This document shows, in pieces, positions 1,021 to 32,143 of a stretch of DNA of 64,000 nt (position 1 is its first letter; each line of letters opens with the position of its first letter). Made by a program: the position numbers and the translations under genes. The notes beneath the pieces are model-generated. The model did not search any database. It was given only the letters and a program-made list of their open reading frames with translations, and was not told the DNA's origin. Source of the DNA: Nakazawaea peltata. Its lineage: Eukaryota > Ascomycota > Pichiomycetes > Alaninales > Pachysolenaceae. The stretch covers positions 385,554-449,553 of the forward strand of contig BCGQ01000002.1 in the NCBI GenBank assembly GCA_001599355.1, in the 5' to 3' direction.

Positions 1021-1728
1021 TTAATCTACATTTCCTATAACAAGTGTATTCTTCTCCAGTTCCAACTCTTTTAAACGAGCCTTCTCCTCTTCCAATTCCT
1101 TCAAAACTTTAGTGGTAGCTAGCTGTAATCTGTCGATCTCATCTTGTTCCAATTGTCTAGAGAATGGATTCGATTTTGTGGATTTCACAGGAAGTAACAG
1201 ACGAGGCACCGATGTCAACACCTCAAACATCTTGTCAGTAGGTTCATTGAATACCAACTCATCATAAAATATACTCTCCACAAGTTTGTTATTATTTAAC
1301 ATCTCATCTTTCATATTTCCATTGCCAGAAATGGCCCCAATACCACTACCAGGGAACAGCTGATAAGGATGTAATCTCAAATGGTGGAATATGCTGATAT
1401 TCTTCTCGCCACTTTCGGTGACAAAGAAGATCTTGATATTGATTTCAAATTCACCCCAACCTGTCTCTGTGACTTCGAATGGAGGAGCCTCGATCGACCT
1501 TGTCAGATTCGGATATGTGTCATGCAACTTGAATACCACTTTTTTAATCATATACGAAAGATCCAGCCCAGTAGGATCCCTCACAAACACGGTCCAATTA
1601 TGAGTATGATCAGGATTCACGTCTGGAGGACGGATAGCGCCGATGGGTGTCAGAGAGTTTCCATAAATGATGGGGCGTGTTATCGAAAGCCCTTTCACTC
1701 TTCTGCTATTTGTTGATGGAGGAGCCAT
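1021..1728 (-). CDS. YAF9: YEATS-domain protein Yaf9
   Basis: This 235-residue protein matches Yaf9, the YEATS subunit shared by the NuA4 acetyltransferase and SWR1 remodelling complexes, which binds acylated histone H3. The YEATS domain spans about residues 14-130 and contains the hallmark stretches VVFKLHDTYPN, APPFEVTETGWGEF and HHLRLHPY. A charged segment rich in E, K and L at about 195-230 forms the expected C-terminal coiled coil. Length is close to that of the S. cerevisiae protein. It is divergent from TFC7 across a 249-base shared promoter; the S. cerevisiae orthologue (YNL107W) likewise neighbours the TFC7 paralogue YNL108C. Confidence 0.95.
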   Translation of the reverse strand: MAPPSTNSRRVKGLSITRPIIYGNSLTPIGAIRPPDVNPDHTHNWTVFVRDPTGLDLSYMIKKVVFKLHDTYPNLTRSIEAPPFEVTETGWGEFEINIKIFFVTESGEKNISIFHHLRLHPYQLFPGSGIGAISGNGNMKDEMLNNNKLVESIFYDELVFNEPTDKMFEVLTSVPRLLLPVKSTKSNPFSRQLEQDEIDRLQLATTKVLKELEEEKARLKELELEKNTLVIGNVD

Positions 1729-11463: not shown

Positions 11464-14267
<2,804 letters not shown>

Positions 14268-14681
14268 TCATGGCTCCTCCTTAGAGAAATCATCTGCACT
14301 CAATCTCTCTCCAAATACCTCCTCAACATGATTACACATATCTACCAAATCATCCAACCCTTTATGCAACAGTTGAACCAGTGTAGTTGGTCCATAGGTT
14401 TGAATTCTGATATTCAACTTGGTCTCAGATGGATGAGGAATAGAGTAACCACAGAACTCAACGTCTGGATTCTTCATGATGATGTATCTTAAAGCATTTC
14501 CCAAAGTATGATCCTCTTCGGCAATTTGGAAAGAAGCGGCGGTTCCATCTTCACTAGCTCCAGGTAAGAGCTTGATCTTTTCGGTGTCGACTTCTTCCTC
14601 ATTGGTGTCTTCTACATCCATAGCGTCATCGACAACTCTTTCAGTAGCGGATTCGTGCATCTCTTGGTCTACAGCAGACAT
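14268..14681 (-). CDS. RPC19: RNA polymerase I/III subunit AC19
   Basis: A 137-residue protein matching AC19, the small alpha-like subunit shared by RNA polymerases I and III. An acidic N-terminal tail (1-45) precedes the conserved domain with SFQIAEEDHTLGNALRY, KNPDVEFCGYSIPHPSE and NIRIQTYG. The next block reads TT-x-VQ-x-LHKGL, where both x are CTG codons (14379-14381 and 14370-14372); S. cerevisiae has Ala at both places (TTAVDALQKGL). This is among the best local evidence for CUG-Ala decoding. RRPE-like GAAAATTTTTT and GGAAAAATTTTT lie at about 14730-14760 upstream. Confidence 0.97.
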   Translation of the reverse strand: MSAVDQEMHESATERVVDDAMDVEDTNEEEVDTEKIKLLPGASEDGTAASFQIAEEDHTLGNALRYIIMKNPDVEFCGYSIPHPSETKLNIRIQTYGPTTLVQLLHKGLDDLVDMCNHVEEVFGERLSADDFSKEEP

Positions 14682-14983
14682 CTTTAATCAGGTCCTATCC
14701 TTTAGTAATGAAATCAAAGAGGAATAGGAGAAAATTTTTTTAAGTAGGGAAAAATTTTTAGTTTGAGGGTTGGGTGATGGGTGTAAAGGGGGTAACTGTA
14801 AAGGGGGGTAATCGAGGGGGAGGTACCGAACAAAGTAGATATATCAGAAGAGATAGTATATGAGAAGCAGAATATCTAATTGGATTTGCGAAATTCGGTC
14901 TGGAATATCAAAATACCACCCCTAAGTTACTTTGTGGTCGTGTACAAACACCCAATGAGCGAATTACAAATAATTAGATACTT

Positions 14984-15226
14984 ATGCAAATAAGCAAGAG
15001 ACAAGCGATTGAGGATTATGATTTCCTAGTTAAGAAATTACCAGAACAAATTCGTATTCGGGTTAGTGAATTTTACGCAGAAAATAATCTTAATAGGGAG
15101 GATAAAGCAAAGAAATTTAAAGCATCTCATACAGACAATTTAAGTAGTTTACCAGTAACTTTACCAGTAACGTTCAATAGTGAACTGATCTTCAGATCGA
15201 TCCTTTACTCTCTCTGTCCTGCCTAG
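14984..15226 (+). CDS. Small hypothetical protein, 80 residues
   Basis: An ATG-started frame divergent from RPC19. The product begins with a helical, charged region (RQAIEDYDFLVKKLPEQIRI, then YAENNLNREDKAKKF) that has normal coding-like composition, and ends with a short hydrophobic stretch. A short upstream ATG frame (14955, 12 codons) overlaps its start region. I do not recognise a family. It could be a real small gene, an upstream frame of the long AZF1 leader, or chance. Confidence 0.35.
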   Translation: MQISKRQAIEDYDFLVKKLPEQIRIRVSEFYAENNLNREDKAKKFKASHTDNLSSLPVTLPVTFNSELIFRSILYSLCPA

Positions 15227-15814
15227 AGCTCACATACTCCGACAGCAACATCTCCTACTCAAATACTACCCCCCTGGCATCTCTCCCCTATCATCATCCC
15301 CCTATAGTTTCCCCTCTAAATATCCCCCTATAGTTCATCTTATCTGACACCTTAATTTCTTTTTCCCAATCAAAATCTCAATTTCTTTTGTTTCTTCTTT
15401 TCTTTTTACCTCCACTACACGTCAACAAACGAGTGACACAAGAAACACACCTGTTGACCCCTGAAATCAACACGCGACTTGATCCAACAAGTCCACAGCG
15501 CTTTAATCAACTCAACTCTTCAACATCCTCAACCACCCAATCCCCCTCAATATCCTCCCCTCCACTTACCAATTCTCGCCACCTGAAACAGCAATCCCTC
15601 AGAATTTACAACAGAAATTGCGGCCAATTTCCCCCCCTTTAAGCACCCAACGGAAGCCCAAAAAAAAGAAAGAAAATTTTTTTGTCCTTTCTTTTTAAGA
15701 GCAACAGCTTAACTACGTGAATCAAGAGATCATTAGCGAGCCGGGTACCTGACGGAGAATTCATCGAATCAGACAATCGGATCCTCTTCTACAGATCCCA
15801 AGACAATCGTGACC
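15227..15814. other. AZF1 leader region
   Basis: About 590 bases, C/T-rich and then A-rich, with GAAAATTTTTTT at about 15672. An 84-codon frame (15388-15642) is Ser/Thr/Pro/Gln-rich and looks like translated leader rather than a gene. Confidence 0.4.
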
Positions 15815-17935
15815 ATGTACAATATGTCGCAATCCAACAAAAACCCCCCACCTCCTAACTCCTCAAGCAATCCAAATGACGCCCCTTCTTCTTTTGTGAG
15901 GATGGGTTCGATGTCTGATGAGGCTGGAGCTTTTTCAATTTCAAGACGTGGGTCTTCACTTCTATATCCAATGCTTAGAGAGAATTCTGTCATTGAACAC
16001 CCCAATGGGGCTGCTTCCGGTCCTGGGGCTGCTCATAATAACGGTTCCACTACGCCCGGTTTCAATTATTCAATGGATAATAGAAATAGTATGGGTTTAC
16101 CACGTAATGAATCTATTTCACAATTCTTTACAGGATTCAATTCACGTTCAAATAGTGATGCTTTACAACCGGCAACCAATTTTTCAACAACTCCAAATTC
16201 TCTGCCAACTCTGCAATTTGCTCCACAGCAACAACAACAACAACTGCTGCTGCTGCCTCAATCACTGCAACAATACCATCATCAAAGTTTACCACATCCA
16301 ATGAACCCTCCTGGACATCCAAGTGGTCCTCAGGCTCAACAACTGCCATCGCTGTCCCAACCACTGTCCCAACATCCTCAACAACCACAAGGAAATTTCT
16401 ATCCGGGTACTGCTACCGATTATATGAATCATAGATATCCTCCTGCCGATGGTAATCCTCAATATTATGATTATGGAGCTCAGCCACAACCTCAACAACA
16501 ACCTCCTCCAAATTCACTGATTGCTCAACAACATGCTGGCCATCCTCAAGCTACCGGAGCTAAGGATGGTGCCGTTATTGACCCATTGGCTGCCAATAGA
16601 AGACCCTCTGATCAATTCGATTTCAATCTGCGTTCAAGAGCTAATAGTAACTTCTTTGGAAGACCTCGTCAATTGAGTATTCTTCCTATTCAAGATGGTC
16701 CTAATGATTTCGATTCATTTTTGAAAAGAGATTCGTTCAGAGGTTTAATGAATTATAATGGAGGTGATATTTTAGATCATATTCCAAATTTCCAAGATCA
16801 GGAATTCCAACAATACAGACAACATTCCAGAAGTGGATCCACCAACAACACTGGCTATGTCAATGGAGCTCGTTATTCAGCCGGTAACTTTTTTGATCCT
16901 CAACAGCAACTTCAACAGCAACAACTTCACGGCAAGCAAATACCTCATTCACAACAGCAACCATTGCCTTCGATTCCACAACAATCAGGATCACGTAATG
17001 ATCAAGGATCAAATGATGAACCGGGCAAGAAGAAACAGAAACGTCAAACTAAGAAAGGTAAACAAAGTGGTAATTTGGATACATACTCTTTCCCTAAACA
17101 ACAACCTGGAACTCATCCAGTGAACCGTGGAGATGGAAAATTAGTGCCTCTGCAAGAAGTGATGCATTCTGATGACGGTCGTCCTTTGTTAGGTGCCACT
17201 AAAGTGGATCAATTGATGTTAGTTATCGAGCTGAGAAATAAAGGAATCAATAAACTGATTCCTCGTGCAGAAGATGGATCCATTTTACTGGATCTGGAAG
17301 CTGGTGTGATTCCTCAACCTATTGATTTAGTTGGTGGTGTGGAAAAACATACCTTGGCTCGTAATAAGAACTATCAATGTAATTATTGTATGAAGAAGTT
17401 CACCCAATCGACACATCTCGAAGTTCATGTCCGTTCTCATATCGGTTATAAACCTTATGAATGTAATTATTGTGGGAAGAGATTTACTCAAGGTGGTAAT
17501 CTTCGTACTCATCTTCGATTACATACTGGAGAAAGACCATTCCAATGTGATGTTTGTGATAGGAAATTCTCAAGAAAGGGTAATTTACAACTGCACAAAC
17601 TGACCCATGATAATTATAAACCATTTGAGTGTAGATTAGATGGTTGTTCCAGGTCTTTCACCCAGTTAGGTAACTTGAAGAGTCACCAAAATAGATTCCA
17701 TTTGGAAACATTGAATAAATTGACCGAAAAATTAGCCGATTTGGGTTCGGATGGTTCTGATATCATGTTCAAAATTGAAAATTTGCCGTATGAAGAGCAA
17801 AGTTTATTGAAATATTTCACCTCTACTTACAAGAATTTGAACAGAGGTATTCGTGGACGTGGAAAGGGTGCTGGTACATCCAATATCCTGGATTCAACCG
17901 GTTCAGGAAGTGTTAAGGGACAAGTACAGAAGTGA
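15815..17935 (+). CDS. AZF1: C2H2 zinc-finger transcription factor Azf1
   Basis: A 706-residue protein with a long disordered N-terminus rich in Gln, Pro, Asn and Ser (polyglutamine near 135-150) and four adjacent C2H2 fingers at about 520-630: CNYC...H, CNYCGKRF, CDVCDRKF and the atypical CRLDGCSRSF with HQNRFH. The finger block, the linker TGERPF and the tail ending RGIRGRGKGAGT match Azf1, an activator of carbon-metabolism and cell-wall genes. A CTG at 17591-17593 falls at an Ala position of S. cerevisiae Azf1 (GNLAAH). The first ATG in frame is 15815; a second ATG three codons later is also possible. S. cerevisiae AZF1 is YOR113W, next to CEX1. Confidence 0.92.
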   Translation: MYNMSQSNKNPPPPNSSSNPNDAPSSFVRMGSMSDEAGAFSISRRGSSLLYPMLRENSVIEHPNGAASGPGAAHNNGSTTPGFNYSMDNRNSMGLPRNESISQFFTGFNSRSNSDALQPATNFSTTPNSLPTLQFAPQQQQQQLLLLPQSLQQYHHQSLPHPMNPPGHPSGPQAQQLPSLSQPLSQHPQQPQGNFYPGTATDYMNHRYPPADGNPQYYDYGAQPQPQQQPPPNSLIAQQHAGHPQATGAKDGAVIDPLAANRRPSDQFDFNLRSRANSNFFGRPRQLSILPIQDGPNDFDSFLKRDSFRGLMNYNGGDILDHIPNFQDQEFQQYRQHSRSGSTNNTGYVNGARYSAGNFFDPQQQLQQQQLHGKQIPHSQQQPLPSIPQQSGSRNDQGSNDEPGKKKQKRQTKKGKQSGNLDTYSFPKQQPGTHPVNRGDGKLVPLQEVMHSDDGRPLLGATKVDQLMLVIELRNKGINKLIPRAEDGSILLDLEAGVIPQPIDLVGGVEKHTLARNKNYQCNYCMKKFTQSTHLEVHVRSHIGYKPYECNYCGKRFTQGGNLRTHLRLHTGERPFQCDVCDRKFSRKGNLQLHKLTHDNYKPFECRLDGCSRSFTQLGNLKSHQNRFHLETLNKLTEKLADLGSDGSDIMFKIENLPYEEQSLLKYFTSTYKNLNRGIRGRGKGAGTSNILDSTGSGSVKGQVQK

Positions 17936-18030
17936 GTTGTTCTGTTATTTGATTTTATATTTGCTTTTACATATTATTTGTGACTATTATTTACTTCTAA
18001 TGCACTATGTTTAAAAAAAGATACTAATAT

Positions 18031-20787
18031 TTATTTGTAAGTGTTATCATGAGCCCATTCGTTTAATAATTCGTCAAAGTTGTATAGACCGGAAGGTTCC
18101 GAGAAGGGTTGCGTTTGTTCAGAGCCAGATCCCGGTTCAAGAGGTTGAGAGGGAATTGTCGATCCGGTAGGTGAATAAGAAGATCCGACGGTAGATAATG
18201 GTACGGAACTAGTGGCCGAAGTCTCTGAGAATCCTGGGATTTGGAAATCATCAAATTCTGTCCCGTTTATTTGTAAGTCATCAAGTAAATCAGTAGATGT
18301 CTTGGCGAAGTCCGAATTCATATAAGGAGGAAGGAATTTACCAAAGATTCTTTCATCGAATTTATCGATGATACCTGGGATGTATTTTCCATTCAGGATG
18401 CCGGGCAGTGTCAGGTCCAGCAGTGGAGTGGCCTGCAGTGGGGTGCCTGGCAGTGTCAGATCCAGTGTCACCCCGCGCAGTGTCAGATCAGTCAGTGACG
18501 CAACATTTTCCCGCGGCAATTCGGCAGAAACAGAACCCGAACCCCCATCTTCAGAACCCAACTTCACTTCATTACTGTCAATCTCACTGTTGATCGGTGT
18601 TGGAACTGACATTTTCAACTCAATTCCAGTTCCCTTACCGTTTATATAATTAATTCCATTAACAATTTGATCACCCCCAACTTTCGACTCATCTCCCGTA
18701 GCCTTCTCTTGAGACAGCCTCAGTTTCTGAACAGCCGCAGTCCTAGCGGCAGTATTTCTATTCATTTGCTCAAATACAGAGTTCAAAATATTAAAAGTAC
18801 GTCTAGCCAGCGTAGTACTATTTTTCAAGATTTCTAATACTTTTTTACCCCTCTCCAGATCCAGCTTAATCAGCATATATTCTTCATCTACTACCCCTGG
18901 TCCAAAATGTACATAATAAACAAGACACAGTACACTGAAGAAGATAGTATAGACACTGAACCAGTATGATCCACTTAACATATCCTTCAGCACCATATCT
19001 TCACTCAATTTCACAACTATTCGGGCCACATTTATACTGTTTTTCAGCTTCTCCAACAGTTGCAATTCGTAAATATTAGACGCATCCCGGAAGTCACGTG
19101 ATATGTAATGAATGAAAGGACGATATAAGATGATCTTGATATGTAAATAAGCAAAGTGGAGTAATTTGTTGGCTTTGCAGTACCTTTGATGGGGTTCTAT
19201 TCCTGGTTTCAATTCCAATGGGAGTTCATTGACCCACCCCTGTAATTCCAACTCTAAATTATAGACAATGTCATTCATCGATTGAGGGGGAACATTTGGC
19301 TGCTTCTTATTAATCGGATAGAGTTTATGCACTACCTTTTTCATCACCATAAGTAATTTGGTATGAGCATTCAGAATAGCCGAACTGGAAAGTCCCTTCT
19401 GATTACTGAAATTATATCCTGTTTCTGTGATATTTTCATCATCCAATTCAATTGGGAAATCTTGGTCGAAATCTTCATCGTCTAAAGACATTGGTAATCC
19501 AAGCATGGCATTTACATAGATATCCATTTTATAGACAGTCCAGAAAATACGTTTACGGACTTCGAGTTCGATAGGATTGAAGGGTTGCTTTAATCTACGA
19601 TGGAATCCCTCTCTAAGTAAAGCACGGAGCCCAATTCCAACATATGAATAACATGTAGATAATCTGGCTCCACATTGTAAGAATAAAACAAGCATGACTA
19701 TGGTTTGAATACCGTAGATATCACGAGTATCTGTAATGTCGATCAATTTACGCAGCAGAATGAAATATCTGTACCCCTCATCATCAAAAATATCCAGCTC
19801 TTCTTTGGTTTGACCTATACTATTTTTAGTAACTTGAGAAGATTTGTAGAATAAAGAACCACACAGCATTACCGAATAGACCAAGGGTAAGAATTTCTGT
19901 TGAGTATCCGTATAGTTAACAGGGTCAGTCTCATAAAGAATACTCAACTGTTTAATGAAACTTGGTCTATGATAGAATCTGAAAAGTACACAGGTATTAT
20001 CCCAGGTCAATGAGATCAATTTGACCAGGATTTCTTTAGGAGGAAGTATAATCTTGATCTCCTTACCGACAAGACTCTCAATAGAGCCATCAATTGCCTG
20101 GGCTTGTGAAGTCAGAGGAGTGCTGGAGGAAGATTGAGGAGAGTGGACATCACTGGAGCTTCCTGAAGGATAGATATTACGGATCGCCGATATATTGTAT
20201 AAATGAACTAACTCTTGTAATTTAACGTTCGGTTCCTGTGGTTTTTCAGATCTCCATTGTTGTAAGACACTGTTTAATTTGAAAATATTAGCGTTACGAA
20301 GTTCTGGGAGTAATTTGGCAACAAATTGTTCATATTGAGCAAGAAGTTTATCGGCAGATATTTGTGGTTCCAGTTGTACGATATTGGAAGTTGAGTCTTG
20401 TCTTGAAACATCAGGTCTTTGAAGTTCTGTATCTGTCCGTTTCCTCGTTGAAGGCTGATTGTACGTACATTCATACGAATAAACCGTACAATGAATACAT
20501 GGCTGTTGTCCATCACATTTGACCTTCTTACGACGACACTCATCACACAGTCTGGTGACTCTCTTACGCTTAGGTGCTTGCAGCAGCGAGTCATTCACCG
20601 CAGGTAGAAGTATAGGAGCGGGACTATCAGCTGAATCTAAGCGGGGAGCTGAAGATGGTGCGGGGTCATGCTCACTGATAACGTGGGTCTCTTCAGTATG
20701 AGTGTCTTCATTTGAGTGTTGATGACCTTGATGAGAGAAATACAACTGGGTTGACTCTTCTTCTATCAGATGTTTTCGTTGAGGCAT
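18031..20787 (-). CDS. ASG1: Zn2Cys6 transcription factor Asg1
   Basis: A 918-residue regulator. The zinc cluster at about 77-112 (CDECRRKKVKCDGQQPCIHC) is almost identical to that of S. cerevisiae Asg1, and the central fungal-specific domain (about 240-650) shares GREIKIILPP-type, FYHRPSFI, ARLSTCYSYVG, MLGLP and ILYRPFIHY blocks with it. Asg1 is linked to stress response and fatty-acid utilisation genes. The C-terminal region holds a cluster of CTG codons (18370-18505) in imperfect TLDLTLPGT-like repeats. It converges on AZF1 with 95 bases between stops. Confidence 0.93.
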   Translation of the reverse strand: MPQRKHLIEEESTQLYFSHQGHQHSNEDTHTEETHVISEHDPAPSSAPRLDSADSPAPILLPAVNDSLLQAPKRKRVTRLCDECRRKKVKCDGQQPCIHCTVYSYECTYNQPSTRKRTDTELQRPDVSRQDSTSNIVQLEPQISADKLLAQYEQFVAKLLPELRNANIFKLNSVLQQWRSEKPQEPNVKLQELVHLYNISAIRNIYPSGSSSDVHSPQSSSSTPLTSQAQAIDGSIESLVGKEIKIILPPKEILVKLISLTWDNTCVLFRFYHRPSFIKQLSILYETDPVNYTDTQQKFLPLVYSVMLCGSLFYKSSQVTKNSIGQTKEELDIFDDEGYRYFILLRKLIDITDTRDIYGIQTIVMLVLFLQCGARLSTCYSYVGIGLRALLREGFHRRLKQPFNPIELEVRKRIFWTVYKMDIYVNAMLGLPMSLDDEDFDQDFPIELDDENITETGYNFSNQKGLSSSAILNAHTKLLMVMKKVVHKLYPINKKQPNVPPQSMNDIVYNLELELQGWVNELPLELKPGIEPHQRYCKANKLLHFAYLHIKIILYRPFIHYISRDFRDASNIYELQLLEKLKNSINVARIVVKLSEDMVLKDMLSGSYWFSVYTIFFSVLCLVYYVHFGPGVVDEEYMLIKLDLERGKKVLEILKNSTTLARRTFNILNSVFEQMNRNTAARTAAVQKLRLSQEKATGDESKVGGDQIVNGINYINGKGTGIELKMSVPTPINSEIDSNEVKLGSEDGGSGSVSAELPRENVASLTDLTLRGVTLDLTLPGTPLQATPLLDLTLPGILNGKYIPGIIDKFDERIFGKFLPPYMNSDFAKTSTDLLDDLQINGTEFDDFQIPGFSETSATSSVPLSTVGSSYSPTGSTIPSQPLEPGSGSEQTQPFSEPSGLYNFDELLNEWAHDNTYK

Positions 20788-23128
20788 CTTTCATAATATG
20801 GTTGACTATTTCTTTGAGTGTCTCAAGTGGCTCCAAATGAGGATTCAAGTGTGGGGTTCGAATATAGACAGGGTTGAAAAGTAGCGGCAGAGACTCTCTG
20901 GTATTTGTTAGTGGTAATACTTAGCTATTGAGTATTGTGAATCTCTCAAAATTTATCGAGTTCACCTCCAATGTTCAAATATCCTCTCAATGGCCGTTGA
21001 TGATGATTCGAAATTATCTGATTTGTTCAGCAATCTTTCGTTTTAGGTCGTGCAAAGTTCGAGGATGTCAAACGAGACCAGATGCGGCTACAAAAAGCTT
21101 GATCAAACAACAAGGTGGGGCAAAGATCGAGCACAGTCTAAGTTTAAGTATAGAATGAATGAGTAGAAGAGTAGATTTAGATGTCGGAGATTATATATTT
21201 TTTAAGTATTAATGGAGGGAAGTAAAGTTGTGGTTGAAATTTCTTTTTTCAACTTGCAGGTGTAGGGGGATTGAAAGGGTCTTGGAGGGATTGAGTGGGT
21301 AAATATGAATGTAGAAACAGAATGGGTAATATTAAATGAGTAATACTGTTGGGGAATTGCTGTGGAATGTAAAGCTTAAGAATGAGGTCGAGGTCAAATG
21401 ACACCATGAACTTCATCTCAAGCTCAAGTTTAACTCCATCCTAAACGTTGTCTCATCACTCTATTGAAAAAATAATGTTCGGCGTTAACTTTGTCATTTC
21501 TTACCAATTCCTACATCGGAGGCGATTTTCTGAATCTCGAGCTGCCGATTTAATGTCTGGTCTAACTATTTGTGCATATTTCTTATTGGGTTCTCCAATT
21601 GGGGATGCTGCCTTTTTTTCCCGCATCCCTTTTTCCCTGGGAAAGTGTAGAAAATGACGCGGGAAAGAGAAAAATAGGCAAGGAAAGGGGATGATCAAGT
21701 GATGGGGGAGGGTGATGAGAAGAGATGGCACGGCTTAATTGACCTCGGTGATGGGTGATGGATGGAAGATGAGATGATTACAGTTGATGTAAGGCTTTGC
21801 TGGGAGATAGGGAGAGTGAATGTTAGGGATAGTGAAGTGAAGGTGTTGATGGATTGGGTGATTAGTATGGTGAGAGCCGATTAGAGTAGCGGATCCGATA
21901 CCACAAAAAATAACCTTTGAATCTGATGATGAGAAGATCAAAAACAATAAAAATGCATACAATGTAAAGTTCAATTGAAATGTAGTAGAGTAGGAGATAA
22001 TACTTTGTGTTGATGTGTTCTCTCTTGTTCTTCTCACATGACGCTTCAGTCATTTACTTCCGTTATTTATTGAGTAATTTACTACCTCATCTCTGAATAA
22101 AAGCGCGCGCAAAGAAAAGAACCGAGTTGACGTAACCGCCCCTATTGTTAGTTGAGTGGGAAATAAGTAGGAGATGTGACTGTGGCCGCAGAGAAAGGAG
22201 AGAGAGAAATGCACACAAAGAAAGACAGAGAAACAGGCAGAGAGGCAGGCAGAGAGGCAGGAAGAGAAATACAGACTAGCAGATGGAGTGTAAGAGAATG
22301 ATAAGTATCAAATAAGTTGAAGGCGAGAGCTCGGGGTATGAAGAGGTGAAGAGACAACTCAAAATCTATACGAAGATTTATCAAATTATTCAGATCAGTT
22401 TGAATACTAAACACCAGATCATGTGATCACGCTAACCGCATAGTCTATTCGTTTATTCTTATGCGTTTCACCGTTTAATATTTCGCCTTAATTTTCCGCT
22501 TAAGAGTGCGCGAAAATGAGGTAGCGAGGGGAAGATTGCTAAATAGGGGCTGTATAGTAGTAGGTTTGTAGACTAGATGGAAGAGGATGGAAGGATGGAG
22601 TGTAGGGTGTAGAGTGGATATGAGTAGGTAATGACAGATCATCTTCTGTAGCTACTCCATTCTTCCTGTCTGCTGTCCCTCTCACTCCTGTAACTCCGTA
22701 CCTGGGTTCCCCTATCCCCTCCCCACCACTCCTGCCCTGCCCTACCCCCTCCACTCCCTCGTTCCCTTACGTAATCCCCCGATTGTTTACTATTGCTCCC
22801 TTGTTTACATTTTCATTTCCGCTCTTTTTCCCTTCAACAACATTCCAGCGAAAAACCAAAACAAACAAACAAAAAATTTTCTTAGTGTTGAGTCGGAGAG
22901 AAAGCAGAACGAAGATCAGGCGGTGGAGTTACAGCTTGAATCACATCAAAGATCCTTCTACTTTCCATATTACTGCTCGACATCACTGATTATTGCTCGA
23001 CAGTTGATCGATCCCATTTTACTTCACTTGAATTTGACTCGACTCGCCTTAGTAATTACCCCCTTAATTTCATATCCAGCAATCTACGGCGCTTAATTTA
23101 GTCATCAACCAAGTCGAATCAATCCATC
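20788..23128. other. Long intergenic region between ASG1 and the forkhead gene
   Basis: This is 2.34 kb of shared upstream DNA for two divergent regulator genes. It contains scattered frames of 60-100 codons (for example 21448-21657 plus and 22148-22414 minus) with no family features, a purine-rich patch GGCAGAGAGGCAGGCAGAGAGGCAG near 22230-22260, and CT-rich leader sequence next to the forkhead ATG. I see no RNA gene or mobile element. A long regulated promoter with a long leader is the likely explanation. Confidence 0.5.
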
Positions 23129-24808
23129 ATGTCATCACAACCCATTGCATATGATGATCCCAACGAGTTGATAAACCAGGTCATCGCCACACTAGCCGTC
23201 CCACAGGATGGTGAACCGACCTATGTCAGCAGACAATATCACAACTCTAAGAATGATCAGAATGAGATCCAACTGTATGCGAAGATCGCCGGAAAGGATT
23301 GGACTTATTTCGTCAAGAGCTTGACTATTTATATCGGAAGGAACACAGAGACTGCTTCTTATACTTCGCCGGAGAATAACCCGATTGCCATTGATTTGGG
23401 TCCTTCTAAAGTTGTTAGTCGTAAACATGCCGAGATCACATACAATTTGAACACGAGAAAATGGATGCTTCGTGCTCTTGGTAGAAATGGTTTGAAAGTG
23501 GACGGTGTTCGTCTTAATAATCCGGGTCCTAATAGTGATCCTGTCCCTTTGGAAAGTGGTAATATTGTTGATATTGGTGGGACTCAAATGATGTTCATCC
23601 TTCCCGACACTTCACCAAAGATCCTGAAACAATTCTTGGATAATTTGAAAGATCAGAGATTGACGAAGACTAAGAACGGTGGATATATCGCTGTTCCTCT
23701 CAATAGTTCATCAAATGAAGCTCATATTAACAGTTTATCATTATCATCGATGTCATCTGGATCTCAAATTGGATCCCAACCGGTCAATAATAACCTTAGA
23801 GGATTCCAAATTTTCAATAAAAGTCAAATCAATGACGGTGAATCCCATAGTTCTTCGCCTGGTGCAAAGATCGGTGAACAAGACTTGTCTAAAGACGAAT
23901 CTAAAGATATCAAACCTCCTTTCAGTTATGCCACTATGATTACTCAACTGATCTTGACTAATCCTGAAGGAATACTATCACTTTCGGAGATTTATGATTG
24001 GATATCATCCCATTATGCTTATTATCGTCACTCGAAAACCGGATGGCAGAACTCCATCAGACATAACCTTTCTTTGAACAAACTGTTCGATAAAGTTCCA
24101 AGAAAACCAAATGAACCAGGTAAGGGAATGAAATGGTGTATCGCTCCACTGTATAAGAATGAATTCCTCAAGAAATGGGAGTCTGGAAATATCAAACTGA
24201 GACGTGGTTCAAGTGTCACCAGACAATTGCAATTGCATTTGATGAAAAATAAGAAATTACCTGACACTCAGGATCAACCTTGCACTACATTGAAAGCTAA
24301 TCCTCAACTCCCACAAATCAGAAATGTTGGTTCCATGATGCAACAATCATATCCATCGATGGGGGCTCCAAATCCTCAACAACTTCCTTATATGACACAC
24401 CATCAACGTACAAATTCGAATCCTTATCATTTACAACCGGCTCTGTCATTAGCTCCTGGCCAACCTCCTGTTCAAACTCTGCAAACTCTGCAACAGTATT
24501 CGTTACCAATGTATACCGGTCACAATCCAAATGGAAATGCTAACGGTAATGGATTCCATCATCAATATGGTGCCACTCCACATCTTAATGGTATGGCTAC
24601 TCCTGTATACTCGACGTCTACTGGTGTTAGTGCGTCTACCGATGCCACTTCCAATGGTAACAATGTCAATGGGAAATTGAACGCGGGTCTTTCATCTCCA
24701 CAAGCACCTCTCAGTGCCGAACGTGGGGGAAGAGGATCTACTAATAGAGGATCGGGAGGATTCGGTGATTTCGTTTATTCAAGTCCTACTAAGAATGATA
24801 TGCTTTAA
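23129..24808 (+). CDS. FKH2: Forkhead transcription factor with FHA domain (Fkh1/Fkh2 type)
   Basis: A 559-residue protein with an FHA domain at about 45-155 (IGRNTE, VSRKHAEI, NGLKVDG) and a forkhead DNA-binding domain at about 262-345 (KPPFSYATMITQ, GWQNSIRHNLSLNK, PNEPGKGMKW). The C-terminus is Gln/Asn/Pro-rich and low complexity. Fkh1/Fkh2 activate the G2/M CLB2 cluster with Mcm1 and Ndd1 and influence origin timing. CTG codons at 23273-23275, 23948-23950 and 24083-24085 coincide with Ala in the Fkh proteins I can recall (QAYAKI, MITQAIL, SLNKAF). A single forkhead gene here probably equals the pre-duplication FKH1/FKH2 ancestor; its neighbour ASG1 is next to FKH1 in S. cerevisiae. Confidence 0.93.
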   Translation: MSSQPIAYDDPNELINQVIATLAVPQDGEPTYVSRQYHNSKNDQNEIQLYAKIAGKDWTYFVKSLTIYIGRNTETASYTSPENNPIAIDLGPSKVVSRKHAEITYNLNTRKWMLRALGRNGLKVDGVRLNNPGPNSDPVPLESGNIVDIGGTQMMFILPDTSPKILKQFLDNLKDQRLTKTKNGGYIAVPLNSSSNEAHINSLSLSSMSSGSQIGSQPVNNNLRGFQIFNKSQINDGESHSSSPGAKIGEQDLSKDESKDIKPPFSYATMITQLILTNPEGILSLSEIYDWISSHYAYYRHSKTGWQNSIRHNLSLNKLFDKVPRKPNEPGKGMKWCIAPLYKNEFLKKWESGNIKLRRGSSVTRQLQLHLMKNKKLPDTQDQPCTTLKANPQLPQIRNVGSMMQQSYPSMGAPNPQQLPYMTHHQRTNSNPYHLQPALSLAPGQPPVQTLQTLQQYSLPMYTGHNPNGNANGNGFHHQYGATPHLNGMATPVYSTSTGVSASTDATSNGNNVNGKLNAGLSSPQAPLSAERGGRGSTNRGSGGFGDFVYSSPTKNDML

Positions 24809-24899
24809 TGCAATGTATTTTTATATTTCTAATCATGGTTCTAATAAATGAACATTTACATCTCTTGTCATTAAATACAGTCTAATTTATTCCTACATT

Positions 24900-27815
24900 T
24901 TATCTATGTGATCTAGGCAGTCTCATCCTAGCGAAACGACGACCTGGGACAGGAGTTCCTGATTGGGCTGGAGCTGGAGATCCAGAAGCGAATATGTTGT
25001 TTGGTTGTGGTGCACCTCCGAACATATTCGATCCACTTCCACCAGATCCTGGTACACCAAACATGTTTCCAGATTGAGGAGGTTGATTGAAATTGACTGG
25101 AGTGGCAGTTCCTGAGGATGGTTGGCCCGGTTGCTGCCCAAATATTGATGCTGGGTTCATTGAAGAGACGTTTGAGCCGAAATTGAATCCTGAATTGGTA
25201 GAAGGAGCAGGAGCAGCTCCAGCAGCAGCTCCCGGAGTGACAGATCTAGATGAGTTAAATGCACTGCCATTGAATGCACTACCTCCAAAGACTTTAGATG
25301 GGTCTAATTTCAGGGTTTGGTTATTGGAGGCACCGAGATTGAATTGGAAAGCTGGGGTTTGAGTCAGGCCTGGAGCTGTTTGAGTAGCTCCTGATCCAAA
25401 TAATGGTGTTGGGGTGCCTGAGCCTCCAGAGAATGGAGTGGATGTACCAGAGGCAGGTTTTGCGGCAGCTCCGAAACTGAAAGTTGGCTTTCCAGCAGCC
25501 GATACACCATTAGACGCAGCTCCATTAGTGGCAGCACCGTTGGCAGCATCATTGGCGACAGCAACAAATGAAAACAGAGGTATCGAGTCAGCTTTCGATG
25601 CAGCTCCAGTCCCATTAGTCTCTGAAGTGACAGATGGAGTACCGGAAGCAGCTCCAAATGAGAATCCAGAGCTCAGTTGAGGTGCCGAACCTCCGAAACT
25701 GAAAGCACTAACAGGTTTAGGTGATTCGATTTTGTTATCTTCGGTACCAAAGGATGGTTTTGGAGCTGAACCGAAAGAAAATGTAGGGGTAGCAGTTCCC
25801 AGTGCTGGAACTTTCCGTTTCCTCTCATTCTCCTCCTTGGGTTCTTCAGTGGAAGGAGCCGAAGGAGCCGAAGAGGCACCGAAACTGAAGGCTGGTTTAG
25901 TTTCAGAAGCACCAAATAATGGTTTCAGATTATTATCAGGCTTGGTTTCACCATCCAGTGTAGTGCCCTTACTCAGACCAAATGAAAATGAAGGTTTTGG
26001 AGCTTCAGAGGCTGCCGCAGCTGGCGTGGCTGACGATGCTCCAAATGAGAATGCTGGTTTAGGTGCAGTCTCGGTAGATTCTTGAGCGGAGTCCGAAGGT
26101 TTGGAAGCTCCGAAAGAGAAAGCAGGTTTCGACAGTGCCCCAGTAGATGCACCGAAGCTGAAGGAAGGTTTCAGGTCATTCTTCTCCTCAGTCTTCTCCT
26201 GAGTAGAGGCACCGAAAGTAAGGATTGGTTTCAGATCAGTTTTACTATCAGCAGAGGCTCCGAAACCGAAGGTTGGTTTCAGATCAGTCTTGTTCTCTGT
26301 GGAAGCACCGAAACTGAAGGAAGGTTTCAGGTCAGTTTTCTCTTGAGTAGAGGCACCGAAACTGAAAGCTGGTTTCAGATCTTTCTCCTGAGCTGGAGGT
26401 TTCAGATTTCCATTATCTGATGCACCAAAGGTAAAGGTAGGCTTCAGGGCACTCTTTTCCTGAGTAGAGGCACCGAAACTGAAGGCAGGTTTCAGATCCT
26501 TCTCCAACAGAGAAGTATCTTTAGATCCAAATGAGAACAGAGGTTTCTCTTTAGTCTCCAGACTTGCTCCAAATGAAAACAGAGGTTTAGACACTGGATT
26601 CTCAGAACTCTTAGACGCTACTACAGGCTGAGTGGCCGACGATGACAGTCCAAACGATAATGCAGGTTTGCCTTCCTTCTCAAGAAGAATAACTTGTGGT
26701 TTAGCAATACTCAGCTCGGTAGATCCCGAGAGGAAACTGAAACCCGAACTTGGTCCAATATTAGCGGATTTTTCAGAACTTACAGAAGTTCTAATTGAAA
26801 TCTTAGGCTGTTGTTCCATTGGCTTGATTTCTGGCTCTGATTTCAGAAGGACAACCTTGTTTTGACCAGAAATAACAGACTCCATACCTGGAGCAAGAGC
26901 CTTAGGTCCATATTTCTTCTTAATCTCGGAAGTAGAGTCAATATCCACACCTTTACTACCCTTCTTAGTCCCTACATCTTCATCTTCCTCATCTAAATCA
27001 TACACAAATGACCCATTAAACATCCCCATCGTATTAGTAATCTTTGCAGTCTTCAGTTTCTTATCCACATGCTTATTATTCTTCCTTGTTAACTTTGAAG
27101 TTCTCAACAGACGGTCTTCATGAGGGAGGAACGAAGTGTTCTCCACCGACATCATCGACGTATCCATTAGCACCGTGCTATTAGCACTATTAGTCTGATT
27201 ATAATGATTCATATACTTCATCTTACGACGATAATAGGCATCTAATTTCATCTTTCTCTTTAAATTTATCAAACTTGATCTCTCCTTTGGATTAATTTGT
27301 GATACTTGACGTCTTAAAAGTGGAATCGATGCCTTCCGTTGCAGTAAAGATGGAGGCATCACTAAAGATACTTCTCTAGATTCAGGGAAGGGACGTTTAA
27401 ATCCACGGGCAGTTTCAGATCCAAATCTTTGAACAGTCTCATTGGAATCATCATCTTCACTCTGGTCATTTCCATCCTCATTGATCAATCCAACACCATA
27501 TGGATAACTTTCTCCCAGTAACTGACTTAAAGCCTTATTGTTCTCACGTTGTAAAGAGGCATGGTATAATTTCAAGGCGGTGATATCACTCACTTGACGG
27601 TTTCCGAATTTCTCAGATTTGAATTTGTTGAATTTCGATAATGAAGAGTCATTTGAATCGGATTTGATTGCTCTTCCTTCCTGATGATTGTTGGCATCGT
27701 CGTTTGCCATACCGAAAAATCCCATCAAGTTACTGACAATGCGTGTTTTCTTAGTCGCTGTCCCATACTCTCCCCCTTGAGGAGGAGAATTCAGTCTTTT
27801 CAGCGAATATTCCAT
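24900..27815 (-). CDS. NUP1: FSFG-repeat nucleoporin, Nup1-like
   Basis: A 971-residue protein. The first 320 residues are basic and charged, with KKTR and RRKMK motifs suited to membrane or importin contact. About 15-20 FSFG or related FG repeats follow from about 360 to 930, with spacers of the type DxKPAFSFGAS in which x is CTG. It ends in RRFARMRLPRSHR, resembling the basic terminus of S. cerevisiae Nup1 (KIARMRHSKR). Nup1 is a nuclear-basket nucleoporin that docks importin beta/alpha and mRNA export factors. The spacers read DLKP under the standard code and DAKP under CUG-Ala. Nup60 or Nup2 are less likely because of the tail. Confidence 0.8.
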   Translation of the reverse strand: MEYSLKRLNSPPQGGEYGTATKKTRIVSNLMGFFGMANDDANNHQEGRAIKSDSNDSSLSKFNKFKSEKFGNRQVSDITALKLYHASLQRENNKALSQLLGESYPYGVGLINEDGNDQSEDDDSNETVQRFGSETARGFKRPFPESREVSLVMPPSLLQRKASIPLLRRQVSQINPKERSSLINLKRKMKLDAYYRRKMKYMNHYNQTNSANSTVLMDTSMMSVENTSFLPHEDRLLRTSKLTRKNNKHVDKKLKTAKITNTMGMFNGSFVYDLDEEDEDVGTKKGSKGVDIDSTSEIKKKYGPKALAPGMESVISGQNKVVLLKSEPEIKPMEQQPKISIRTSVSSEKSANIGPSSGFSFLSGSTELSIAKPQVILLEKEGKPALSFGLSSSATQPVVASKSSENPVSKPLFSFGASLETKEKPLFSFGSKDTSLLEKDLKPAFSFGASTQEKSALKPTFTFGASDNGNLKPPAQEKDLKPAFSFGASTQEKTDLKPSFSFGASTENKTDLKPTFGFGASADSKTDLKPILTFGASTQEKTEEKNDLKPSFSFGASTGALSKPAFSFGASKPSDSAQESTETAPKPAFSFGASSATPAAAASEAPKPSFSFGLSKGTTLDGETKPDNNLKPLFGASETKPAFSFGASSAPSAPSTEEPKEENERKRKVPALGTATPTFSFGSAPKPSFGTEDNKIESPKPVSAFSFGGSAPQLSSGFSFGAASGTPSVTSETNGTGAASKADSIPLFSFVAVANDAANGAATNGAASNGVSAAGKPTFSFGAAAKPASGTSTPFSGGSGTPTPLFGSGATQTAPGLTQTPAFQFNLGASNNQTLKLDPSKVFGGSAFNGSAFNSSRSVTPGAAAGAAPAPSTNSGFNFGSNVSSMNPASIFGQQPGQPSSGTATPVNFNQPPQSGNMFGVPGSGGSGSNMFGGAPQPNNIFASGSPAPAQSGTPVPGRRFARMRLPRSHR

Positions 27816-27888
27816 TGAATTAACACGGTTAATTTGTTTGTGACAGATCTCAAACTGTTTTCATTTTTAAAATTCAGTTTTAGTATGA

Positions 27889-27960
27889 GGAAAAATTTTT
27901 AGTTGGGGAGAAGTTGTAAAATGCTGAGGGATGATAATTAGTAGAATGCTCAGATGAGAT
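27889..27960 (-). promoter_or_regulatory. RRPE and PAC-like motifs upstream of NUP1
   Basis: GGAAAAATTTTTA at 27889-27901 and GATGAGAT at 27953-27960 lie 75-145 bases upstream of the NUP1 ATG. They are the same pair as at NOP15. Confidence 0.45.
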
Positions 27961-28075
27961 GGCCAAGGGGAGAAGGGGATGGCAGGGCAGGTGACCTCCT
28001 TGGTCTGGAACAGGATCAACTCAGGTGGATACTGTTGCAGTAATGTAAGGTTTATGGTGAGGTGTGAAAGTCGTA

Positions 28076-28951
28076 CTATCTTTCCCTGAAAGGTTCAATC
28101 TCAATTATTCCCCCCACTTCAATTTCATACAGCTCATCAGATCTCATAAAGTATGGGAAATAATAATGATAAGAAATGATACTGGAACTGATTCCGATGA
28201 TAGATCCCAAAATAACATCCCTAAAGAAATGTCGATTATCACTTATTCGACTGAATGCAACTATCATTGAGCAAGATATAGGAGCCACCAAAGTAAATAA
28301 TCCAAATGGTACTGTTCTTTTTGACTCAAAGACTCTTAATTGAGAGACAGTGTATAGAATCTGAACTGTACTTCCAGCAAATATTGTAGAGCTGTGACCA
28401 CTAGGGAAACTTCTAAACCCCTCATTCAATAATCTTGATCCATAATTAGAACACATACTAGAATTTGCTAGCATCTTCTCTTCAATACCACTCACATTTA
28501 AAACTCCACACCTAGAAAAGAGGTCCGGACGTGGTCTACCACAAATATTCTTCAACATACAAACTAACATCAATTGAATCAGTAATGATGTCAATAATAC
28601 TAATAAACCACAGTGGATGTTCCATATTCTTTTCCTGGTGGACCAAGACTGATGAAGCCACCCGATACTCACAATAACAAATCCAGGTATAACCGCCGAT
28701 AGAAGTATAAGAATAGGAATAGGTACAGCGGTCCTTGCTTCGGGAATATATAAATACATGAGATGTGTATCGGAGATAGAGAATTCAGCAGCTTTTGGCC
28801 TAATGACAACTCCGAATATCATGGAGAATATCAACATTATTCTATACACATTGTTAATATGCGCCTTTGATCGTTCCTCTATACAGATCTTCATACTTAC
28901 ATTGGGATTATCCAATTCACAACCACTTCTACCAATTGACTCACCTTCCAT
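28076..28951 (-). CDS. PAP2-type lipid phosphatase (Dpp1/Lpp1 family)
   Basis: A 291-residue integral membrane protein with about six hydrophobic segments. The three lipid phosphate phosphatase motifs are intact: KNICGRPRP (KX6RP), PSGHS, and SRISDNRHFFRD (SRX5HX3D). Members dephosphorylate diacylglycerol pyrophosphate, phosphatidate and lysophosphatidate in vacuolar or Golgi membranes. Length is close to S. cerevisiae Dpp1 (289) and Lpp1 (274); I cannot tell which is closer. The ATG at 28951 is the first in frame. Confidence 0.9.
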   Translation of the reverse strand: MEGESIGRSGCELDNPNVSMKICIEERSKAHINNVYRIMLIFSMIFGVVIRPKAAEFSISDTHLMYLYIPEARTAVPIPILILLSAVIPGFVIVSIGWLHQSWSTRKRIWNIHCGLLVLLTSLLIQLMLVCMLKNICGRPRPDLFSRCGVLNVSGIEEKMLANSSMCSNYGSRLLNEGFRSFPSGHSSTIFAGSTVQILYTVSQLRVFESKRTVPFGLFTLVAPISCSMIVAFSRISDNRHFFRDVILGSIIGISSSIISYHYYFPYFMRSDELYEIEVGGIIEIEPFRER

Positions 28952-29227
28952 ACACTTCCCCAAATCTCAACTTCCCTATCTCTTAACATACTCATTCTCA
29001 CCATTGAAACTCGTTCTTCTAACCCTCCACTTCTCATTAACCACCTCTTACTAACCCCCACTCATTAACCCCCATTGGTTCACAATCACCCCCAATTTAG
29101 TCGTGCATCTCCAATTTCCATAATAGGAAATACCCTCTCCTCTAAATTTCTCCGCATTTTTGATCGTCTCATTTCAATACAAATTATATTGAAGACAAAC
29201 CATCAATTGGATAGCAACTACTAAATC
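28952..29227. other. Divergent promoter between the PAP2 and complex I-like genes
   Basis: 276 bases rich in C and T on the plus strand, with repeated CCCC-CATT-type tracts (for example TAACCCCCACTCATTAACCCCC). No gene is seen. Confidence 0.4.
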
Positions 29228-29524
29228 ATGGCTGGAGTGTTATCATATCTCGGATGGGCCTCAGTTGGTATGTGAAACATAACTGATCCATCATTGTACA
29301 TCTACTAACTCATTATAGGCTTACTGGTCAGAGCATACCAACAAGGAATCAGACAGATGCCTTACACACTGTACCCACAAGGATTATTATATAGTGCTGG
29401 AATTTGGGTTGGTATTGGATATGCTTTCAATTCATGGGTCGAAAATAATGATAGATTATTGAATGAACAAGTTGAAAAGTTGAAAGAAACCAGAGAAAAG
29501 AGAGCTCTGCTTGCTGAGGAGTAG
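29228..29524 (+). CDS. Small mitochondrial inner-membrane protein, complex I accessory-like, two exons
   Basis: Exons 29228-29267 and 29319-29524 give 81 residues. The 51-nt intron has donor GTATGT, branch site TACTAAC and acceptor TAG, splitting a Gly codon. The product starts MAGVLSYLGWASVG, continues with LVRAYQQGIRQMPY, one hydrophobic segment (GLLYSAGIWVGIGYAF) and a charged coiled helix to the end. This size and order (short N-terminal helix, one membrane span, charged helix) resemble the 10-14 kDa single-span accessory subunits of fungal NADH dehydrogenase such as NUUM/NUO14. That assignment is from memory of the family shape and is uncertain; the gene structure is solid. Confidence 0.7.
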
Positions 29525-29911
29525 ATTAGTTCCCCACTATATTTATTTATTTATTGACCTTGGTCGTTATTTATTATTATTTATTTGAATACAAGAAATG
29601 TATAAATTTGTTATCTTAAGTTCTCCATAATTGTTGTAACCATGACTGCTCCTTCGATCCAGCCAATCCCACCCCTTTAGCTTCTCCTCCCCTTTTAAGT
29701 CTCATATTTTATTAGCCTCATATTTCTCCTACTCCTTCCCAAGACTTTTTCTTAGCCACATACTTTACCCTACTTTTATACAGCCCCAGTTTATTCAAAC
29801 GCGAAATCTATTTCACAACCTCATCAATTCATACAAAGTGTCTACAATACTGATAAGCGCCGAGTTCAATTCACTTCAATAACACTCACCATCCCTATCA
29901 TTCCATTGGAT
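29525..29911. other. Intergenic region upstream of RTT106
   Basis: 387 bases, AT-rich on the left (ATTTATTTATTTATTG after the stop, probably 3'-end signals) and CT-rich on the right. No gene or motif recognised. Confidence 0.4.
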
Positions 29912-31188
29912 ATGTCATTCCTTAGAACTTTACCACCTGGTCTCCATAAACAGGTGAAAGAGATCATGTGTAAGTAGTGTACTCACCCCTCGGAGCAAAG
30001 AACTTGTACTAACGAAATGAACTAGCTCAATTACCTCAAAGTGAGGCTGTATTTCAAGCTTTCTACGACCATTTGACTCAATCTGGTCCTGATTTGAAAA
30101 GGCCAAAGATTGAACCTCAGGAGACAATCGCTTCTCAAGTTCTGAGTCAACCAACTGTCGCGGCTCCTCTGGATTTGACTTTAGAAGGTTATCATATTGC
30201 TTTACAACTCCCTGAACTCTCCATAATGTCACCATTCAGGAAGAAATTGAACTTTGTGATCGCATCTAAAGATGACTCAAAGATTTTAGCCTTAACTAAA
30301 TCAATTGATGACCCTACAGTGGTTCCAGATTTGATCATATCGGATTTATCAGCTAGCAATATTCTCTTTGCGGTGATGTTACCGATCCCTGAGAAATCTA
30401 ATTCGCGTTATATGCTGATATTTTACAATCATAACCGTAATGATTCATTCAAGAATGAACCTTTATTGATTCAGATGAATTTTGACGTGTTGAATGCTCA
30501 ATGGTTACCTATTTTACAACAGTTGAACTACCCTGACTTGATCTCATATTTACAAAGACAATTCCAGATGTGTGGATTCAATTTAGAGAACCCATTCGAA
30601 GGTGCCACTACCTCATTCTATGTCCAGGCTTATAAGGGATCCAAAGAAGGGATCTTGTATTTCTTACCGAATTATATCATCTTTGGGTTTAAGAAACCAA
30701 TATTAGTTTACAGATCAGATGAAATAGACAGTATTACATACACTTCGATTACGAGAATCACTTTCAATGTCACATTACATTTACAGAATGGAGAGAAGAT
30801 GGAATTCTCCATGATTGACCAATCTGAGTATGACAAAATCAATGAGTATGTTCAAACTAAAGAATATAGAGATATTTCTATGGCAGAGGAATATAAACTG
30901 AAGACAAATATGAAGAATAATGAGTCAGAAGGCGTATTAGAGCAAGTTGCTGAAGAGACAGGTGTTAATATTCAGGCCAACGATTCAGATGATGAGGAAG
31001 AGGATCTGAATTATCAATTTGGAGGTGAAGAAAGTGATGGAAGTGGGGGAAGTGGAGGGACCGATGATAGTGAAGATGATAGTGATGACAGCGAAGCTGA
31101 TAGTGAAGAAGATGATGAAGACGATGAAGGAGAGGAATTATTATCTGAAGAAGATTTAGGTGAAATGGACAGTGATATTGAAGAGTAA
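29912..31188 (+). CDS. RTT106: Histone chaperone Rtt106, two exons
   Basis: Exons 29912-29969 and 30026-31188 give 406 residues; the 56-nt intron has GTAAGT, TACTAAC and TAG. After a short N-terminal dimerisation region, two PH domains fill about 65-315 (MSPFRKKLNF, then KEGILYFLPNYIIFGFKKPI and ITRITFNV), and the C-terminus is an Asp/Glu/Ser-rich tail. Rtt106 binds H3-H4 acetylated at H3K56 and deposits it in replication-coupled assembly and silencing. The CTG at 30898-30900 lies in EEYK-x-K, where S. cerevisiae has EELKAK. Without the first exon the product would lack its first 19 residues. Confidence 0.95.
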
Positions 31189-31423
31189 CTAATGTATATT
31201 TAAATGTATCCCCGCAAAAACCGTAACCCACTGTAGTATAGTTAGTACTATATGTATTAGGCGAGGAATGCGCACCATCACAATGCACTTTCTTAATATG
31301 AGCATATTATTAATTTACATATCCCCGCCTTAACCGTACAACAAAAATTCTCATATTAAAATCAAAACTCAACTCAACTCAACGCCAAATCAGTCAACCA
31401 CCTCACCCTCAGAAGTCACTAAG

Positions 31424-32143
31424 ATGGTTGAAACAGATTTAAAGTTCTGCACAGTATGTGCTATGAACCAAAATAGGTACGTTTGATACGATTCAACTCC
31501 GGTCAGTCACTTACTAACACCAATCAGATCCATGCAAGCTCATAAAGTATTACAAGACGCTGGCTATAATGTTCATTCATTTGGAACAGGTTCCCTGATC
31601 AAATTACCTGGGCCTGCTCTTGATAAACCAAATATTTACGAATTCGGAACTCCTTATGAACAAATTTACGAAGAATTGATCAAGCAAGATCCCAAATTAT
31701 ACCAACTGAATGGAGTCCTTCTGATGTTGGAAAGAAATAAATCTATAAAGAAGGCTGCTGAAAGATGGCCATATATCAATGTTGCTGGGAATGAAGAATT
31801 CAACGAGAAACAGTTCGGTTTTGATATCGTATTTACATGTGAAGAAAGATGTTATGATGCAGTGATAGAAGATTTGATTAATAGAAACTACAACCAACCA
31901 GATTCGACTCAAAGAATTGTTCATGTGATAAATTTGGATATTAAAGATGACCATGAAAATGCTAAAGTCGGAGGAGCGGGGATTTTAAAACTTGCTAATA
32001 GTATTAGTGAGAGATATAATACATCTAAGGACAAAACAGATCAATTTTCCGAGCCATTTGAAGATACAATGTTAGACTTAATGAGTGAATGGCAGAAGGA
32101 ACATCCAAGGTTACCATTATTGTATAGCGTTTGCTACTATTAA
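31424..32143 (+). CDS. SSU72: RNA polymerase II CTD phosphatase Ssu72, two exons
   Basis: Exons 31424-31476 and 31528-32143 give 222 residues; the 51-nt intron (GTACGT, TACTAAC 31512-31518, CAG) splits the Arg codon of the active-site loop VCAMNQNRS (CX5R). Further conserved blocks are GYNVHSFGTGS, FGTPYEQIYEEL, FTCEERCYDAV and HVINLDIKDDHENA. Ssu72 removes Ser5/Ser7 phosphates from the Pol II CTD and is part of the cleavage and polyadenylation factor. The CTG at 31595-31597 falls in GTGS-x-IKLPG, where S. cerevisiae has GTGSAVRLPG. In S. cerevisiae SSU72 (YNL222W) adjoins POP1; here GUD1 lies between. Confidence 0.97.

Follow-up and report, generated by a model that had tools for sequence, protein, structure and literature searches.

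In the 64-kb stretch of DNA analyzed here (the window; positions are counted from its first letter), the nuclear genes almost certainly read the codon CUG as alanine, as in translation table 26 of the NCBI, judging from the comparison of their predicted proteins with homologues. An earlier note on this DNA had proposed this code, and two approaches bore it out, the effect across the whole window exceeding chance. Alanine was the best of all 20 residues in the alignments with homologous proteins and the best of alanine, leucine, and serine in the searches with Pfam profiles. The change of code is a rare one already known in kind; the note correctly identified it as table 26, which is used by the small order Alaninales.

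The window is gene-dense, and its set of genes looks like that of a budding yeast. Thirty open reading frames (ORFs), 14,907 codons in total, were taken as genes; 28 of them were scanned against Pfam and 27 matched a family (E <= 0.001). Their stop codons are TAA (17), TAG (4), and TGA (9). CTG occurs in these ORFs 293 times (19.7 per 1000 codons), including 102 occurrences within 14268-31597, which agrees with the free use of this codon asserted previously.

Comparison with homologous protein chains

Ten proteins (RPC19, the forkhead protein, SSU72, DBP2, the M16 peptidase, POP1, ATG4, YAF9, the xanthine permease, and the CEX1-like protein) were aligned with chains from the PDB, which together with the Pfam profiles made up the comparison set. 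The input consisted of 18 aligned stretches, for which 16 of the 38 printed hits were used. At one homologue per site, these stretches covered 67 of the 293 CTG codons; the other 226 lay outside the test. For each codon, we looked for the one of 20 residues that best explained the facing residues, with substitution frequencies estimated on the remaining codons and a BLOSUM62 prior. Left out were near-duplicates, two RPB11 chains, two further FOX chains, DDX5, DDX42, the APG4B/ATG4B chains, the PLK4 kinase hits, the second hit for POP1, and, for SSU72, the second chain of the presumed human type and that of the presumed fly type. Of the ATG4 and DBP2 hits the weakest stretches were also dropped, as was the final residue of one RPAC2 alignment.

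The 67 CTG sites faced Ala 21 times, Ser 6 times, Ile, Thr, and Gly 5 times each, and Leu 3 times, the remaining 22 sites being spread across eleven residues. CTG was best read as Ala, with Ser 8.9, Thr 41.7, Val 73.9, and Leu 125.4 bits behind. When all entered rows were used (84 CTG observations), the lead of Ala amounted to 23.3 bits over Ser and 174.9 bits over Leu. At the alanine columns of the homologues, CTG made up 21 of the 90 codons that were either CTG or GCN. Among the 396 leucine columns, 215 were occupied by a leucine codon other than CTG and three by CTG, in line with the earlier statement that conserved leucines are not encoded by CTG.

The same procedure recovered the standard meaning of 55 of the 60 other codons, both with one homologue per site and with all rows, and TTG, TTA, and CTT were clearly recovered as Leu. 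With one homologue per site, four of the missed codons had 3-7 sites (ACG, CGG, CTA, and TGC); the fifth was GTG, which came out as Ile by 1.2 bits over 25 sites. With all rows, ACG, CGG, and TGC were again missed, and Ile was preferred for CTC (by 6.4 bits, 25 sites) and GTA (by 7.3 bits, 43 sites). The Ile readings of GTG, CTC, and GTA were taken for the exchange between Leu, Val, and Ile. Hence, no further sense codon is clearly reassigned in the window.

Comparison with Pfam profiles

All 28 scanned ORFs were translated with CTG as Ala, and 20 of them also with CTG as Leu and as Ser (tables 26, 11, and 12, respectively), the only three meanings tried. One family was counted per region, and the scores of 26 domains containing CTG were summed, including WD40_RLD, which lies below its curated cut-off. 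Genes 28076, 54743, and 43067 also carry CTG in a matched domain; they were scanned with the Ala reading alone and stand outside this sum.

The Ala reading exceeded the Leu reading by 93.7 bits in sum and scored better in 23 of the 26 domains. The biggest gains were found for DUF2009 (19.4 bits), Peptidase_C54 (10.2), Peptidase_M16_C (9.4), and Fungal_trans (7.9). Over Ser, the sum was +29.1 bits in favor of Ala, which was better in 18 of 26 domains (Wilcoxon p = 0.003; bootstrap 0.999). Among the overlapping families that were not counted, PDS5, SCD, Cnd1, RNA_pol_L, zf-C2H2, zf-C2H2_4, zf-C2H2_6, and the BIRD-IDD finger preferred Ala; pYEATS, RCC1_2, RCC1, PK_Tyr_Ser-Thr, and ResIII preferred Ser, and HEAT_GCN1_C passed its threshold solely in the Leu reading.

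Leucine, serine, and mixed decoding as alternatives

A number of observations speak against alanine. Residues other than Ala faced 46 of the 67 aligned CTG sites, and in the bootstrap over sites (one homologue per site) Ala exceeded Ser in merely 76% of samples. Four of the ten genes lean towards Ser, namely POP1 (by 7.5 bits over its 18 aligned CTG sites), the M16 peptidase (2.9 bits over 12 aligned sites), YAF9 (2.4 bits), and ATG4 (2.1 bits). Ser scored above Ala in 8 of the 26 Pfam domains, among them the kinase domain (by 3.4 bits). Leu scored above Ala in three: Xan_ur_permease and POP1_C, which are best as Leu, and POP1_N, which prefers Leu or Ser equally over Ala by 0.5 bits.

The preference of these three domains and the three aligned sites that face Leu are what favors the view that CUG retains the meaning it has in most yeasts and that the matches to alanine seen earlier are coincidental. 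Such a view appears vanishingly improbable given the distance of Leu from Ala in both comparisons, the rarity of CTG at leucine columns, and the clear recovery of three other leucine codons by the very test that placed Leu so far behind for CTG.

The weak joint of the case is the distinction between alanine and serine, as these residues replace each other easily. CUG read as Ser would correspond to the code of the CUG-Ser1 or CUG-Ser2 clade (table 12), and Ser was indeed the runner-up among the 20 residues, besides being preferred by the genes and domains listed above. However, Ala led by 14.1 bits, a wider margin, once only the 22 best-aligned sites were counted, which have ungapped flanks and a local identity of 50% or more. 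For calibration, 2000 draws of 67 true sites per residue, matched for local identity, were scored as Ala-minus-Ser. None of the 2000 draws of true Ser sites reached the score of CTG (mean -34.6), and neither did any draw of true Thr or Gly sites. True Ala sites gave a mean of 23.6 (sd 15.5), and 83.6% of their draws reached the CTG score. The same held for 97.6% of the true Leu and 100% of the true Val draws, so this score alone says nothing against Leu or Val, both of which were excluded by the comparison of 20 residues. The CTG sites thus do not correspond to Ser; taken with the Pfam sum and the count of 21 Ala to 6 Ser, this makes the serine code highly improbable. Both the Leu and the Ser meaning were rejected on the homologue test, the Pfam sums, and the calibrated draws.

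It is also quite improbable that CUG is decoded mainly as Ala with a steady minor fraction of Ser or Leu. Sequence comparison sees the dominant meaning only, which limits what it can say for pure alanine, and mixed decoding of CUG in other yeast clades is discussed in two papers (PMC8629427, PMC5951914). The residues facing CTG (Ala 31%, Ser 9%, Leu 4%) nevertheless resemble those facing the undisputed alanine codon GCC (31%, 19%, and 3%, respectively).

CTG codons in individual genes

The genes in which CTG sites were inspected are collected in Table 1.

Table 1. Genes of the window with their CTG codons, the residues facing them, and the Pfam scores (bits) under the Ala/Leu/Ser readings.
Product	Position	Strand	CTG codons	CTG sites and facing residues	Pfam, Ala/Leu/Ser
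YAF9-like YEATS protein	1021..1728	-		1651-1653 Ala; 1564-1566 Glu; 1504-1506 Pro	
CEX1/SCY1-like protein	9195..11375	+	21	Homologue 3vwa_A: 10494-10496, 10821-10823, 10863-10865, 10908-10910 Ala	
DBP2, first exon	12479..13786	-		Closest homologue 8ark_A (697 bits): 13499-13501 Ser; 13490-13492 Ala; 13238-13240 Ala	
RPC19 (RPAC2)	14268..14681	-		Closest homologue: 14379-14381 Ala; 14370-14372 Ala	RNA_pol_L_2 113.2/109.2/109.3
AZF1-like C2H2 zinc-finger protein	15815..17935	+	20	Four consecutive at 16244-16255; 17591-17593 and 17600-17602 in zinc finger	zf-H2C2_2 80.8/79.4/78.8
Zn2Cys6 transcription factor	18031..20787	-	34 (GCN: 34)		Fungal_trans 139.6/131.7/136.2; Zn_clus 46.9/43.6/45.3
Forkhead/FHA protein	23129..24808	+		23948-23950 Ala in 5/5 printed chains; 24083-24085 Ala in Fkh1 only; 24149-24151 mixed	Forkhead 125.5/119.6/122.1
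FG-repeat nucleoporin-like protein	24900..27815	-	31		No family matched
SSU72, main ORF	31532..32143	+		Best chain 9syq_I: 31595-31597 Ala; 31706-31708 Ala; 31721-31723 Lys	Ssu72 228.4/224.2/228.2
POP1	35298..37796	-	21	18 aligned	
Insulysin-type M16 peptidase	39648..42869	+	15	12 aligned, one facing Ala	
Xanthine/uric acid permease	48660..50360	-		50160-50162 Ala; 49494-49496 Ala; 50037-50039 Met; 49638-49640 Pro; 49635-49637 Leu	Xan_ur_permease 247.0/250.7/244.5

The single motifs that the earlier note had cited for alanine were compared with the printed alignments. Both CTG codons in TTxVQxLHKGL of RPC19 face Ala in the closest chain, 4c2m_K, but the next two RPAC2 chains have Ala/Val and Ala/Pro at these places and the two printed RPB11 chains Pro/Ala. 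In DBP2, the Ala proposed for HINxQP and VxEFRK is present in 8ark_A, but at the former motif DDX17 and DDX5 have His and DDX42 Asp, and at the latter DDX17 has Asp, DDX5 Glu, and DDX42 Ile. For GTGSxIK of SSU72, the best chain has Ala, and the remaining four printed chains have either His or Arg. For the forkhead protein, MITQxIL was confirmed by Ala in five of five printed chains; at SLNKxF only Fkh1 has Ala, the remaining four printed chains having Tyr or Cys, so the assertion that all these sites are Ala in Fkh proteins was too strong. The permease motif GLQHxLSML held without exception, with Ala in all three printed chains. GNLQxH of the AZF1-like protein was covered by the Pfam family zf-H2C2_2 only (Table 1), and IQxYAKI and EEYKxK of RTT106 lay outside the alignments and domains.

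The product of 24900..27815, which we take to be nucleoporin-like from its repeats, has 18 windows around FxFG. The residue after the motif is Ala in 13 of them, Ser in three, Gly in one, and CTG-encoded in one; the residue before it is Ala in six, Thr in four, CTG-encoded in three, Ser in three, and Gly in two. The position four places before FxFG is of little help: it is most often CTG-encoded (7), followed by Ser and Pro with 3 each. The repeats FSFG[A/CTG]S and KP[A/CTG]FSFG may be regarded as a weak hint, independent of orthologues, that CTG stands for Ala.

Some further features of the genes were noted. DBP2 is apparently interrupted by an intron at a helicase motif (11464-12520, minus strand), with a putative donor GTAAGT near 12495 and, near 11823, the putative acceptor TTTAG and a TACTAAC that resembles a branch point; DBP2 of Saccharomyces cerevisiae likewise has an intron. 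An apparent short first exon (MVETDLKFCTVCAMNQNRYV) lies ahead of the SSU72 ORF that starts at 31532 (region 31334-31532, plus strand), and a small intron is likely to separate the two. The Maf-like protein at 3831-4576 (plus strand) appears to be split across two frames, 3831-4121 and 4163-4576, suggesting a short intron. The 2.3 kb or so between two transcription-factor genes (20788-23128) holds no ORF taken as a gene, its longest listed open stretch being 153 codons, and is possibly a long shared control region. The serine-rich, cell-wall-like protein of 280 amino acids at 38422-39264 (minus strand) has 32 GCN codons and is the sole ORF of the 30 devoid of CTG.

Possible origin of the code and its known distribution

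The alanine identity element of a tRNA is G3:U70. No tRNA genes were found in the 64-kb window with ARAGORN, with ARAGORN allowing introns, or with Rfam at gathering scores. By analogy with what has been published for the Ala clade, CUG would be decoded by a tRNA(CAG) charged by the alanyl-tRNA synthetase. Such a tRNA would have originated from a copy of a tRNA-Ala gene whose anticodon mutated to CAG, and the tRNA-Leu(CAG) would have been lost alongside. The capture of CUG by a tRNA-Ala is possible because recognition by the alanyl-tRNA synthetase does not depend on the anticodon (PMC5951914).

In a survey that covered 52 yeasts and analyzed 18 of them by mass spectrometry, CUG-Ala was placed in Pachysolen, Nakazawaea, and Peterozyma, and the tRNA(CAG) of this clade was traced to tRNA-Ala (PMC5951914). 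The same three genera now form the order Alaninales (taxonomy; PMC11540330), and in a screen of 462 yeast species, 453 were reported to have the CUG meaning expected from its known distribution (PMC8629427). In an earlier study, no CUG codon of P. tannophilus fell on the Leu or Ser positions that were most conserved (PMC4986446). The window resembles the Alaninales in that CUG corresponds to Ala in conserved proteins by both comparisons, conserved leucines are written without CTG, and no other codon is clearly reassigned. With the CUG-Ser1 and CUG-Ser2 codes it shares the codon that moved away from Leu, but it differs from them in the residue, which is Ala by both tests, the margin of Ala over Ser being the smaller one. 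The G+C content of P. tannophilus is near 30%. At 40.3%, the window comes close to Nakazawaea ambrosiae (42.3%; PMC10106607), a likeness that is weakly suggestive of Nakazawaea or Peterozyma at most. From its code, the source yeast most likely belongs to the Alaninales.

CTG as a common alanine codon

Within the window, CTG is an ordinary, frequent alanine codon. It makes up 28.7% of the Ala codons in the 30 ORFs, second to GCT alone; with CTG left out, the GCN alanines number 727 of the 14,907 codons (4.9%). Inside and outside Pfam domains it takes up about the same share of the Ala codons (27.4% and 29.4%, respectively). In the CTN box, which is no longer synonymous, CTG accounts for 43%, and G-ending codons account for 5-18% in seven other boxes. 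CTG cannot be reached from any GCN codon by a single mutation.

This abundance is unlike the general picture drawn by the survey, in which CUG is relatively rare in the code-changed clades and tends to occur in orphan genes or poorly aligned regions (PMC5951914), a statement that may not hold for each species of the Ala clade. The codon usage of the Alaninales is reported to have been computed with the right code in PMC11540330. No statement on the abundance of CTG in the Alaninales was met in the open literature searched, and the figure may stand in the supplement of the latter paper.

Low CTG shares were found in several codon-biased genes (DBP2 0.12, the permease 0.14, cytochrome b5 0.18, and RPC19 0.18), with gene 4745-5596 (0.39) as an exception. 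Over 28 of the 30 genes, the CTG share fell with a proxy of codon bias whose favored codons were chosen from recall of S. cerevisiae (Spearman -0.50, p = 0.007). We give an even chance to the idea that CTG has become fully naturalized, having been re-populated to the second commonest Ala codon at conserved and variable sites in a finished transition, with depletion mainly in the more codon-biased genes. If true, such a finished transition would be unlike the avoidance of CTG reported for the serine clades. The CTG shares describe one window and may not be genome-wide.

Some CTG codons lie in short repeats: a run of four follows a Gln tract (16244-16255), and others belong to a 12-base repeat in an insert of ATG4 (59179-59214) and to a 48/96-base array of FG repeats (26188-26381). 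Part of the CTG excess may thus stem from the growth of repeats.

Implications

Table 26 is required to translate the proteins of this genome. The standard code would write about 2% of the residues of the window as Leu, and in two of the 30 ORFs (1021 and 18031) half of the alanines would be mis-written in this way. Searches for homologues, predicted structures, and proteomics would all inherit such errors. Should the CTG share prove to be as high in the genome as a whole, the species would lend itself well to studying the spread of a captured codon after its reassignment.

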